A stretch of DNA of 64,000 bases, taken from Pyruvatibacter mobilis (GTDB lineage Bacteria > Pseudomonadota > Alphaproteobacteria > CGMCC-115125). The stretch spans positions 2,645,501 through 2,709,500 of the forward strand of contig NZ_CP051630.1 of NCBI RefSeq assembly GCF_012848855.1, read 5' to 3'. The position numbers were made by a program, and so were the translations under genes. Positions 27,489 to 33,739 of the stretch are shown here, piece after piece; position 1 is the stretch's first letter, and the number at the start of each line of letters is the position of its first letter. Under the pieces are notes generated by a model. It was not told the DNA's origin. It saw only the letters and a program-made list of their open reading frames with translations, and did no database searches.

Positions 27489-27530
27489 AAGAAGGCCGGC
27501 AGTCGCAGGACTGCCGGCCTTCTTGCTTTT
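27489..27530 (+). terminator. Intrinsic terminator after the receptor/PepSY operon
   Basis: AAGAAGGCCGGCAG (27489-27502) and its perfect complement (27511-27524) enclose an eight-base loop, and CTTTT follows. The symmetric A and T flanks suggest it could act on both strands. Confidence 0.88.
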
Positions 27531-29270: not shown

Positions 29271-29437
29271 CGTGCTTCGCCTCATGACCGGCCGGGAAAA
29301 CCAGCCGGACCAACGGCTTATCCTGTAATTTGCCCCGCAGGGCCCTTGCATCGCGCAGGCGCCCCCTCTATAACCCCGCGTCTTGAGTGCCGCCTGGCCT
29401 GAAAGGGCATGCCATGGCGGTGTGGTTGCTGACTTCG

Positions 29438-29461
29438 GCGCCGGACTCATCGGTCCGGCGC
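29438..29461 (+). promoter_or_regulatory. Leader hairpin just upstream of rpmI
   Basis: GCGCCGGAC (29438-29446) and GTCCGGCGC (29453-29461) form a perfect nine-base stem with a six-base loop, 25 bases before the rpmI start. No T run follows, so it is more likely a leader structure of the r-protein operon than a terminator. Confidence 0.5.
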
Positions 29462-29486
29462 TCTTACGTTCAAGGAAAGACGCGAA

Positions 29487-29684
29487 ATGCCCAAGATGAA
29501 GACCAAGAGCGGCGCCAAAAAGCGTTTCCGCCTCACGGCTAAAGGCAAGGTGCGGTCCGGCCAGACCGGCAAGCGCCACGGCATGATCAAGCGGTCCAAC
29601 CGTCAGCTGCGCAACCAGCGCGGCACGACGATCCTGTCCGATCAGGATGCCCGCATCGTCAAGAAGTACATGCCCTACGGCTAG
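29487..29684 (+). CDS. rpmI: 50S ribosomal protein L35
   Basis: Codes for 65 residues, the standard L35 length. [23 protein letters not shown] is the family N-terminus, and [19 protein letters not shown] follows. AAGGAAAGA stands nine bases before the ATG. L35 binds 23S rRNA in the large subunit. It is followed 39 bases later by rplT. In many bacteria infC precedes this pair; here infC is 6 kb away with its own terminator. Confidence 0.98.
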
Positions 29685-29723: not shown

Positions 29724-30089
29724 ATGGCACGTGTCAAACGGGGCGTTACCACTCACGCCCGTCACCGCAAAGTTATCAAGAAGGCCAAGGGCTATTACGG
29801 CGCCCGGAAGAACACCTTCCGCACCGCCACCCAGGCCGTGGACAAGGCTGGTCAGTACCAGTACCGCGACCGCAAGGCCCGCAAGCGGACCTTCCGCAGC
29901 CTTTGGATCCAGCGCATCAACGCCGCCGTGCGCGAGCACGGCCTGACCTATGGCCGATTTATCAACGGTCTCAGTGTCGCCGGCGTTGAGGTGGACCGCA
30001 AAGTCCTGTCCGACCTCGCGATCCGCGAACCTGAGGCCTTCAAGGCTCTGGTCGATCAGGCGGCCGCCGCGCTGAAGCAAGCCTCTTAA
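29724..30089 (+). CDS. rplT: 50S ribosomal protein L20
   Basis: Codes for 121 residues. [35 protein letters not shown] is the rRNA-binding basic extension, and the globular RNA-binding domain ([28 protein letters not shown]) completes the protein. L20 is needed early in 50S assembly and in several bacteria represses its own operon by binding a leader that mimics rRNA. GAGGAG lies upstream of the ATG. A hairpin (30097-30114) and a larger nested structure follow the stop, before pheS. Confidence 0.98.
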
Positions 30090-30096
30090 CGGCTTT

Positions 30097-30208
30097 CCCG
30101 TCCTTCCGGACGGGGCACATGAAGAACAATCGCTGTTTGCCCGCGCGGGCGTCTGCCGGTTCAGCCAGAACCGGGCCTGACGCCCGCACGTGCACCAGCG
30201 ATTTTTTT
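30097..30208 (+). terminator. Nested hairpins ending in a T7 run between rplT and pheS
   Basis: Hairpin 1 pairs CCCGTCC (30097-30103) with GGACGGG (30108-30114). A second, larger element nests three stems: AATCGCTG (30128-30135) with CAGCGATT (30196-30203), GCGGGCGTC (30145-30153) with GACGCCCGC (30179-30187), and CCGGTT (30156-30161) with AACCGG (30169-30174). Seven T follow (30202-30208). It would work as the rpmI-rplT terminator or as a pheST attenuator. Confidence 0.7.
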
Positions 30209-30254
30209 ATGCGAAAAGGCGCCTCACCTCCTGCGCCGGAACGAGACCTCTTAC

Positions 30255-31349
30255 ATGTCTGACCTGAAGAGCGAAGCTGCTGCCCTCGAAGAGCAGTTCA
30301 CCCAAGCCATCACCGATGCCGAGAGCCTCGACGCCCTCGAACAGGTGCGCGTGGCAGCCCTCGGCAAGAAGGGGCGGGTGTCCGAACTGATGAAGGGCCT
30401 GGGCAAGATGAGCCCGGATGAGCGCAAGGAAGCAGGACCGCTGCTGAACGGCCTCAAGGCGCGCATCACAGAAGCCATCACCACCCGTCAGGACGTGCTG
30501 CATGACGCCGCCCTGACGGTGAAGCTCGAGCAGGAGCGCGTCGACGTGACCCTGCCGGTGGCGACCCCGGATGCCGAACAGGGCCGCATTCACCCCAACA
30601 GCCAGGTCATCGACGAGATCGTCGCGATCTTCGCCGACATGGGGTTCGACGTGAAGGAAGGTCCGGACATTGAGACGGACGAATACAACTTCAACGCCCT
30701 CAACATCCCGCCGGAGCACCCTGCCCGGCAGATGCACGACACGTTTTACTTCCACGAACAGGAAGACGGCTCACGCCTGCTCTTGCGCACGCATACAAGC
30801 CCCGTGCAGGTGCGGACCATGCGCTCCGAGGAGCCGCCGCTGCGCTTCATCGCGCCGGGCCGCACCTTCCGCTGCGACAGCGACCAGACGCACACGCCCA
30901 TGTTCCACCAGGTCGAAGGCATGGTGATCGACAAGGAGACCCATATGGGTCACCTGCGCTGGACGCTTGAGGAATTCTGCAAGGCGTTCTTCGAGGTCGA
31001 CAGCGTCGAAATGCGCTTCCGGCCCAGCTACTTCCCCTTCACTGAACCGTCCATGGAAGTGGATGTGCGGTGCGATCGGTCCGGCAAGGATATCAAGATC
31101 GGCCAGGGGGATGACTGGATGGAGATCCTGGGCTGCGGGATGGTCAATCCCAATGTGCTCAAGGCGTCCAATCTCGACCCCGAAATCTATCAGGGCTTTG
31201 CCTTCGGCATCGGGATCGACCGTCTCGCCATGCTGAAATATGGCGCACCGGACCTGCGGGCCTTCTTCGATGGCGATGCGCGCTGGATCAAGCATTACGG
31301 GTTCTCGCCCTTGGATGTGCCCTCTTTGTACGGAGGGCTGAGCCGATGA
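30255..31349 (+). CDS. pheS: Phenylalanyl-tRNA synthetase alpha subunit
   Basis: Codes for 364 residues. PheS holds the class II catalytic core of the alpha2-beta2 enzyme that charges tRNA-Phe. An N-terminal coiled coil (about residues 1-90) binds tRNA. Motif 1 is [22 protein letters not shown], motif 2 [25 protein letters not shown] and motif 3 [22 protein letters not shown], all intact. Its stop overlaps the pheT start by four bases (ATGA). A structured, T7-ended RNA element lies 47 bases upstream of the start and may control the operon. Confidence 0.98.
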
Positions 31350-33739
31350 AGTTTTCCCTTTCCTGGCTCAAGGACCACCTTGAGACTACAGCCTCCCTCG
31401 ACGAGATCTCCGACGCCCTCACCATGCTGGGCCTTGAGGTTGAAGAGATTCACGATCCCGCCAAGGCGCTGGCGGCATTCTCGGTCGCCAGGATCGTGGC
31501 CGCCGAGCAGCATCCGAATGCGAACAAGTTGAAGCTCTGCAAGGTCGCGACCGCCTCAGGCGAGATGCAGGTGGTGTGCGGGGCGCCGAATGCGCGCGAG
31601 GGGCTCGTGGGCATTTTCGCGCCTGAGGGCGCCTATGTGCCGGGCATCGACATGACGCTGAAGCCGACGGAGATCCGCGGCGTGCAGTCCAACGGCATGA
31701 TGTGTTCCGAGCGCGAGCTTGAGCTGTCCGACGAACACAACGGCATCATCGACCTTGAGGGCGACTTCGAGGTGGGTACGCCTGCCGCTGACGCGCTGGG
31801 CGTCAACGACCCGGTGATCGAGATTGCCATCACCCCCAACCGTCCAGATTGCACCGGCGTGCGCGGCATCGCCCGTGACCTGGCCGCCATGGGCATCGGC
31901 ACGCTCAAGCCCGAGACCATCGCGCCTGTTGCCGGGACGTTCGACAGCCCCATCGGCGTTGACCTCAAATTCGACGGCGCGCCCGCGTGCCAGCTGTTCC
32001 TGGGGCGGATGATTAAGGGTGTGAAAAACGGCCCGTCGCCGGACTGGCTGCAGAAGAAGCTGCGCGCCATCGGCCTGCGGCCGATCAATGCGCTGGTGGA
32101 CATCACCAATTACATGTCCTTCGACCGGGCCCGGCCGCTGCACGTGTTTGACGCGGACAAGCTTACCGGCACCGTGCACGCCCGCATGGGCAAGCCGGGC
32201 GAGAAATTCCTCGCGCTTGACGGCAAGGAGTATGAAGCCGACGACAGCATGTGTGTGATTGCTGACGACAGCGGCATGCTGGGCCTTGGCGGCGTCATGG
32301 GTGGGGAGGCGACCGGCTGCACCGAAGAGACGACCAATGTGTTCGTCGAGTGCGCGCTGTTCGACCCCATCACCATTGCCACCGCCGGCCGCAAGACGGG
32401 CATCACTTCGGACGCGCGCTTCCGCTTCGAGCGCGGCGTGGACCCGGAATTCGCCCATGACGGCATGGAGATGGCAACGCGTCTGATCCTCGATATGTGC
32501 GGCGGTGAGCCAAGCAACGTGGGCAGTGCCGGTGACGTGCCTGACTGGAAGCGCGAGATCGCCTTCGACACCGCCCGCGTGCGCAAGCTGACGGGCCTTG
32601 AGCTTGAGGATGACCGCATCTTCGCGATCCTTGACGCGCTGGGTTTCGACAGCGACCGCGCCACGTCACCGGCGACGGTGACGCCGCCGAGCTGGCGGCC
32701 GGACGTGCATGGCTCTGCCGACCTCGTGGAAGAAGCCGTGCGCGTGCACGGCATCAACGAGGTGGCGCCGACACCGCTGCCGCGCCTCAATGCGGTGGCG
32801 CAGCCGATCCTGACGCCGATGCAGGGCCGCGTGCGCCAGGCGCGCAGGGCACTGGCTTCGCGTGGGCTCCTGGAAGCCGTCACCTGGGCGTTCTGTTCCA
32901 AGCAGCAGGCGGAACTGTTCGGCGGCGGTGCCAAGGCACTTGAGCTTGCCAATCCCATCTCGTCGGAACTCTCCGACATGCGACCCAGCATCCTGGCGAC
33001 GCTGGCGGCTGCGGCGCAACGCAATATCGACCGCGGCCAGCGCGACGTGGCGCTGTTCGAAGTGGGCGCTCAGTATGCGAATGAAACGCCCGAAGGTCAG
33101 GCCACATGCGCATCAGGCCTCAGGGCCGGCGCCGTCAGCCGTCACTGGCAGGGCGCGGGCCAGCCGGATGTGTTCACCGCCAAGGCCGATGCGCTGGCCG
33201 CGCTTGCGGCTGCGGGCGCTGCTGCGGATAACGCGCAGGTGCAGGCTGGTGCTGCCAACTGGTATCATCCGGGCCGTTCGGGCCTGCTGACGCTGGGGCC
33301 GAAGGTCATCCTCGCCCAGTTCGGCGAATTGCATCCGCGCGTCGTCGAGGCAATGGGCCTGTCCGGCCGGGTTGCTGCCTTCGAAGTCTATCTCGACGCC
33401 ATTCCCGCCCCGCGCAAGAAGGCCACCCGTTCCAAGCCGCCGCTGGACGCGATCGACCTGATGCCGGTGCGCCGTGACTTCGCCTTTGTCGTCACCTCCG
33501 GCATCGCCGCTGACAAGCTGCTGCGCGCGGCCCGGAGCGCCGACAAGAAGCTCATTACCGACGCGCGGGTGTTTGATATCTATGAGGGCACCGGCATTGA
33601 GCCGGGCAGCAAGTCTGTCGGCATCGAGGTGACGCTGCAGCCGCGCAGCCAGACGCTGACCGACAAGGAGATCGATGCGGTCTCCGAGAAGGTCGTGGCG
33701 GCCGTCGTGAAGGCGACAGGCGGCGAATTGCGCGGCTGA
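31346..33739 (+). CDS. pheT: Phenylalanyl-tRNA synthetase beta subunit
   Basis: Codes for 797 residues, the usual bacterial PheT length, overlapping pheS by four bases. Domains in order: short N-terminal domain, EMAP/tRNA-binding OB fold (about residues 40-150, with [12 protein letters not shown]), B3/B4 editing domain (about 215-380, with [12 protein letters not shown]), B5 domain (about 405-475), the inactive synthetase-like core (about 485-685) and the C-terminal ferredoxin-like anticodon-binding domain (from about 705, [10 protein letters not shown]). Editing of Tyr-tRNA-Phe resides in B3/B4. Nothing is truncated. Confidence 0.97.

Follow-up and report, generated by a model that had tools for sequence, protein, structure and literature searches.

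The rplT-pheS hairpin of Pyruvatibacter mobilis as a probable intrinsic terminator, with an attenuator-like element at the same junction in Rhizobiaceae-type genomes

Does the large hairpin between rplT and pheS of Pyruvatibacter mobilis regulate the phenylalanyl-tRNA synthetase operon, or does it mainly mark the end of the ribosomal protein transcript in front of it? The window, by which we mean the whole stretch of 64,000 nucleotides analysed, is part of a 3.33 Mb chromosome, and the nearest relatives of its rplT are alphaproteobacterial. A sequence-only reading had described three nested stems of 8, 9 and 6 base pairs closing on a run of seven T, preceded by a separate hairpin and lying only 47 bases before pheS, and had suggested either an attenuator for pheST or a read-through control between the two operons. 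The features of the locus are as follows.

29346 to 29374, + strand: possible promoter of rpmI-rplT, TTGCAT-17-TATAAC (consensus match only)
29487 to 29684, + strand: rpmI, ribosomal protein L35 (NCBIfam TIGR00001, above cut-off)
29724 to 30089, + strand: rplT, ribosomal protein L20, the gene 5' of the hairpin (NCBIfam TIGR01032, above cut-off)
30096 to 30115, + strand: small hairpin after the rplT stop, 8 pairs with a 4-base loop (RNAfold)
30128 to 30203, + strand: long interrupted hairpin, probably a terminator, helices of 8, 3, 2, 9 and 7 pairs with a 5-base loop (RNAfold; kept in 3/3 other genomes of the genus)
30202 to 30208, + strand: T7 run, the first two T also closing the stem, then ATGC (sequence; identical in 4/4 genomes)
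30218 to 30237, + strand: small GC stem between T7 and pheS, GGCGC..GCGCC (weak evidence)
30255 to 31349, + strand: pheS, phenylalanine-tRNA ligase alpha, the next gene (NCBIfam TIGR00468, above cut-off)
31346 to 33739, + strand: pheT, phenylalanine-tRNA ligase beta, overlapping the end of pheS (NCBIfam TIGR00472, above cut-off)

The stretch 30127-30208 is folded by RNAfold into a single unbranched hairpin (30128-30203) of -50.7 kcal/mol, compared with a mean of -27.5 kcal/mol for dinucleotide shuffles, none of which was as good (z -8.28; 200 shuffles). The 29 pairs are broken by several internal loops. The earlier description of the nested stems is confirmed for those of 8 and 9 pairs, except that the inner one has 7 pairs rather than 6 and that two short helices of 3 and 2 pairs linking the 8- and 9-pair stems had been missed. 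The T7 run does close the structure, five T following the two that take part in the stem, and the separate preceding hairpin is likewise found, with a far smaller stability of -14.4 kcal/mol (z -2.6). The gap between the rplT stop and pheS is 165 bases, of which 46 separate T7 from the ATG. A scan of the window for hairpins without branches that reach -10 kcal/mol and have 6 or more T among the 8 bases behind them placed the site first among 23 candidates on the + strand, and its complement was the strongest of 13 on the - strand; a simple terminator scan of the window did not list the site. The size that had been called unusual is indeed so, the 29 pairs being about twice the median of 150 terminator-like hairpins found after rplT (14 pairs, -23 kcal/mol), and Zymomonas terminators with mapped ends are given a mean of about 11 pairs and about -17 kcal/mol in the available text of PMC7566282.

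Two other identities were considered for the hairpin and rejected. A bidirectional terminator is disfavoured since the complement folds as well but has a weaker T tract in the other three genomes of the genus, and since the next gene, pheS, lies on the same strand. A mobile or repeated element is contradicted by a genome search with the 96 bases 30120-30215, which revealed no second full copy, the next matches spanning 14-31 bases at E 0.08 or worse. Elsewhere in the window, a perfect 14-pair hairpin at 27491-27522 with T-rich flanks on both strands sits just past a + strand frame and before a - strand frame, and looks like a bidirectional terminator; Rfam gave only weak asX1 and Thr_leader matches there.

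Conservation was assessed in four genomes of the genus, two of which are nearly identical at the hairpin and which represent the whole order by one genus. The three genomes other than that of the window each have a hairpin near -50 kcal/mol, and in all of them T7 and the ATGC behind it are unchanged. In a consensus of 30 hairpin pairs, two have changed on both sides and been kept (U-A to C-G in the outer stem and G-C to U-A in the inner stem), another has a change on a single side, and five show a break or a gap in a single sequence. A lack of compensatory changes, which had been named as grounds for refuting the attenuator idea, is therefore not what is seen, two hairpin pairs co-varying among the four genomes; a constitutive terminator would produce the same pattern. 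The other three genomes read GGCC..GGCC where the window has its small GC stem near pheS. The small hairpin at 30096-30115 is poorly kept, since only a short GTCC..GGAC stem is found in the others, and this weighs against the notion that the 3' end of the rplT mRNA is released as a stable small RNA made up of the small hairpin and the terminator. Two hairpins and a U run within 30096-30208 do match the outline of such RNAs, but with the first of them poorly conserved and with none of 4227 Rfam models matching at the hairpin site at E <= 5, we regard a small RNA derived from the 3' UTR as most improbable.

Stability beyond chance, a U run directly after the stem and a structure kept in relatives are together what is expected of an intrinsic terminator, and the best explanation, to which we assign a probability of roughly 0.8, is that the hairpin is the Rho-independent, U-tract terminator of the rpmI-rplT transcript and that pheST is fed by residual read-through. 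RNA polymerase would produce the long hairpin, the outer 8-pair stem would close against the U run, most transcripts would end there, and the fraction reading through would continue into pheST. The terminator would thereby act as a fixed valve keeping phenylalanyl-tRNA synthetase below ribosomal protein L20, and the synthetase is generally present at a lower level than L20. That termination takes place at the hairpin, how efficient it is, and that pheST depends on read-through instead of a promoter that escaped recognition is what we infer from the sequences; the terminator is probably constitutive and leaky and would set the presumed step-down from L20 to the synthetase. In agreement with a terminator, U-rich stem-loop ends accompany the most highly expressed genes in Methylosinus sporium according to the available part of PMC12403871. 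The element shares with an L-shaped intrinsic terminator a GC-rich hairpin that leads directly into a T run behind a ribosomal protein gene, but its stem of 29 pairs (-50 kcal/mol) is roughly double the usual length and contains internal loops. It is furthermore awkward for an essential operon with no visible promoter to be preceded by a strong terminator, unless the terminator is leaky.

Termination does not need a length of 29 pairs, and this speaks against a terminator alone and directs attention to RNase III, which may cut the read-through RNA in the long stem such that the rplT and pheST mRNAs decay apart. With its 29 interrupted pairs the stem exceeds the needs of a terminator, and such a length is compatible with cutting by RNase III. 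In E. coli the enzyme cuts the rplT-pheM junction inside the termination structure of the attenuator (available text of PMC5371410). However, several internal loops interrupt the stem, and the hairpin is usually much shorter in the alphaproteobacteria surveyed below (median 14 pairs), and a processing site is therefore held as a possible but rather doubtful reading, although termination and cutting may also coexist at the hairpin.

The supply of pheST bears on the terminator reading as well. No promoter conserved between rplT and pheS was found in the four genomes of the genus. In the window the strongest candidate near pheS, CTGACG-17-GATTTT, lies inside the hairpin and T7, yet its score just matches the 95% level of shuffles and it is not conserved, since two of the relatives (L084 and L085) have CTGCCA there and the third (L083) does not have the same site; it was consequently rejected. 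Upstream of rpmI, TTGCAT-17-TATAAC is among the two best promoter matches in three of the four genomes, with a score below the median of the best matches in shuffles of the pheS-side region. About 25 bases 5' of rpmI, the window also has a strong hairpin at 29437-29462 (GCGCCGGAC..GTCCGGCGC), a possible leader structure known from the window genome alone, as the rpmI start was located only there. In the wider survey, 24 of the 105 loci that have both an adjacent pheS and a hairpin show fewer than 30 bases from the end of the stem to the pheS start, which would leave little room for a pheS promoter, and read-through would then be the simplest supply of pheST in those 24 loci. The idea of a read-through control between the operons accordingly survives in the form of a plain terminator inside the gene cluster, with no conserved promoter between rplT and pheS.

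The regulated alternative is that termination would be relieved when phenylalanyl-tRNA is short, as for E. coli pheM, or when rplT is not translated. It draws on the gene order, which is the same as that of the E. coli pheM-pheS-pheT attenuator described in the available text of PMC5371410, and on the hairpin and U run between rplT and pheS, which the two have in common. An attenuator of this type should however possess an upstream strand competing for the 5' arm of the hairpin, and when the sequence between a point 40 bases ahead of the rplT stop and the hairpin was examined for pairing with this arm, no competing helix better than dinucleotide shuffles was found in any of the four genomes (p 0.44, 0.21, 0.315 and 0.295). 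Folding the leader together with the outer 5' arm likewise shows the arm meeting only small local hairpins, with 3, 3, 7 and 7 of its 8 bases paired. Furthermore, a search for frames of at least 8 codons starting in the gap before the hairpin loop gave no Phe-rich leader frame common to the four genomes, the gap frames having 0-2 Phe codons, and the one TTG frame inside the hairpin that all four share has 41, 13, 39 and 39 codons with 2, 0, 1 and 1 Phe. A leader peptide from the ATG at 30119 (47 codons, 2 Phe, overlapping the pheS start) was rejected since none of the other three genomes has it. In all four, rplT has its last Phe codon, a TTC, 12-15 residues before the stop, and no match in the four genus members reached the Rfam gathering score, as was the case for all 20 loci searched. 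The genus thus differs from the E. coli attenuator in having neither a common Phe-rich frame nor an antiterminator helix better than chance. The suggestion of an attenuator for pheST is therefore not upheld here: competing-helix p values of 0.21-0.44, no common Phe-rich frame and no Rfam match make it very unlikely. For this genus a plain terminator is much better supported than an attenuator, and the element is ordinary except for its length. For the window this means that a candidate regulator is struck off and that the gap is explained as an operon boundary inside a conserved gene cluster.

The same junction was surveyed in 211 alphaproteobacterial loci 3' of rplT, 80 of them named. The gene pheS lies within 400 bases of rplT in 159 loci, farther away in 8, and was not found in 44. 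With a terminator defined as an unbranched hairpin that reaches -10 kcal/mol and has a T tract behind it, rplT is followed by one in 103 of the 159 loci with pheS adjacent, compared with 27.6% of their shuffles, and in 45 of the 52 loci where pheS was not seen adjacent, compared with 56.3% of shuffles, longer stretches having been scanned in the latter. Since a terminator follows rplT whether or not pheS is next, the signal accompanies rplT; the remaining 56 of the 159 loci with pheS adjacent are without such a terminator. A point in favour of regulation is that competing helices at p <= 0.05 are commoner with pheS adjacent (22/105) than where it was not seen adjacent (4/45). The available parts of PMC10117765 and PMC1273637 contain nothing on the rplT-pheS junction.

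A second point in favour of regulation comes from outside the window, since a convincing attenuator-like element is found at this junction in Rhizobiaceae-type genomes, by which we mean 80 loci made up of 17 named ones (Rhizobium, Mesorhizobium, Shinella, Bartonella, Falsochrobactrum, Oricola and others) and 63 from family f181, taken to be Rhizobiaceae from its likeness to the named loci. Their rplT has 133-134 codons in 68 of the 80 and a C-terminal extension mostly ending N-x-F-E-[SG]-A-V-x. In most of them, strand 2 (CCAGCGC..) right after the rplT stop pairs with strand 3 (..GCGCTGG) around an inner stem, and strand 3 also pairs with strand 4 (..CGCGGG followed by T) to form a terminator. 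Strand 1, which is complementary to strand 2, is formed by the final rplT codons (gaa agc gct g), which immediately follow the conserved Phe codon. Candidates for the whole element, running from the last 36 bases of rplT to the T run, are seen in L224, L252, L264, L268, L285, L289 and others. The position between rplT and pheS is shared with the window genus, but the four strands and the Phe-bearing L20 extension are both absent from the latter, where rplT ends ..ALKQAS* in the window and ..ALK* in the other three genomes.

In a chosen set of 50 of the 80 loci (A2), and with no statistic corrected for relatedness, the cells of strands 2:3 are paired in 98.0% of cases in the outer helix and 84.2% in the inner helix, and those of the terminator in 98.0%. 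Nine pairs in strands 2:3 and five in the terminator have changed on both sides, and no pairing measure was reached by more than 2 of 500 shuffles. The slid controls all fall below both structures in cells paired and in covariation score; for strands 2:3 a slide of +1 has more both-side cells than the real register (21 vs 17). The pairing of strand 1 with strand 2 has a mean of -13.8 kcal/mol vs -9.3 kcal/mol for synonymous versions (p <= 0.05 in 39/64, median 0.033), and the Ser of strand 1 is AGC in 41 of 42 cases vs 15 of 298 elsewhere in the same genes. Codon choice is skewed at the conserved Phe of the extension too. This residue lies 5 residues before the last one, and 65 of 67 loci encode it by TTT, compared with 43 TTT to 286 TTC at the remaining Phe positions of these rplT genes and 135 TTT to 836 TTC in the pheS parts examined. 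Swapping TTT for TTC alters the 1:2 energy in 51 of 64 loci without weakening it on average (mean -0.11 kcal/mol), and the 1:2 pairing does therefore not explain the TTT. Among all 211 loci, a Phe in the last eight L20 residues is found in 17, and 16 of these are named Rhizobiaceae-type loci.

This anatomy probably, though by no means securely, represents a ribosome-mediated Phe attenuator with L20 itself as the leader peptide. A ribosome waiting at the TTT Phe codon would mask strand 1 and let strand 2 pair with strand 3, the terminator could then not form, and pheST would be read; with Phe-tRNA plentiful, the ribosome would reach the stop and mask strand 2, and the terminator would form. The masking builds on the generally known lengths of ribosome footprints. 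If true, a synthetase operon would have a complete and essential ribosomal protein as its sensing leader, and the L20 extension would be under double selection, as protein and as RNA. The rplT-pheS junction of alphaproteobacteria would then be a site at which the end of a ribosomal protein gene has been turned into a pheST attenuator. In a literature search conducted mostly outside subscription journals, no published description of the Rhizobiaceae-type element was recognised.

Several observations count against this reading or form exceptions to it. The leader has a single Phe codon only, which counts against an attenuator. Furthermore, pheS lies 866-1308 bases away in 8 of the 80 loci and was not found in 6, and six of those eight (L254, L255, L263, L264, L266 and L273) still score as paired upstream. 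An automatic test asking for at least 5 bases of the 5' arm of the terminator to be paired upstream is passed by 73 of the 80 loci, including L283 and 6 of 7 loci with the YERA.GE ending described below, which by eye are simple terminators; since the test does not separate these, the probability of the Rhizobiaceae reading was lowered slightly. None of the 21 Rhizobiaceae-type loci searched (L018, L024, L066 and 18 more) reached an Rfam 15 gathering score, and the 18 gave four matches at E <= 1, all below gathering scores. The best of these is sX6 in L297 (481-731, - strand) with 24.6 bits against the 40 required and E 0.0066, or E 0.00037 when searched alone; it covers the stretch from rplT through the element and shares the strand of the element. 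A match to the rnk leader in L297 (22.8 against 55 required) overlaps the element too, and L284 gave a Leu_leader match (E 0.42) on the opposite strand. One locus of 18, with a score far below the cut-off, does not establish membership of sX6, although the resemblance to sX6 may be genuine.

It should also be mentioned that in L272, L274, L276, L287, L290, L292 and L294 the L20 extension ends ..YERA.GE.., with Tyr replacing Phe, and that by eye six of these have a simple terminator while L272 showed none; in L299 the strands are retained and the Phe is likewise replaced by Tyr. In L254, L255, L263, L266 and L273, a co-directional frame of 281-337 codons lies between rplT and pheS, and these frames share LCHGRPH and FxDFxE and appear kinase-like by eye.

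Other alphaproteobacteria have what looks like a different arrangement at the junction. In four Sneathiella-like loci (L006, L014, L105 and L106), an apparent switch precedes pheS, in which GGGCCC either pairs with GGGGGCCC or leaves GGGGGCCC to pair with GGGTCCCC, followed by a T run. These loci conserve the stretch AGACCACTTTATTAAAA, the stem ends 16-23 bases before the pheS ATG, and the competing-helix p values are 0.07, 0.000, 0.865 and 0.005, the value of 0.865 reflecting that a longer hairpin was chosen in L105. A further switch-like arrangement is seen in L017 (Rhodospirillaceae), where overlapping GGGCCTT, GGGCCCC, GGGGCCC and GGACCCC stretches lie between rplT and pheS and the competing helix has a p value of 0.025.
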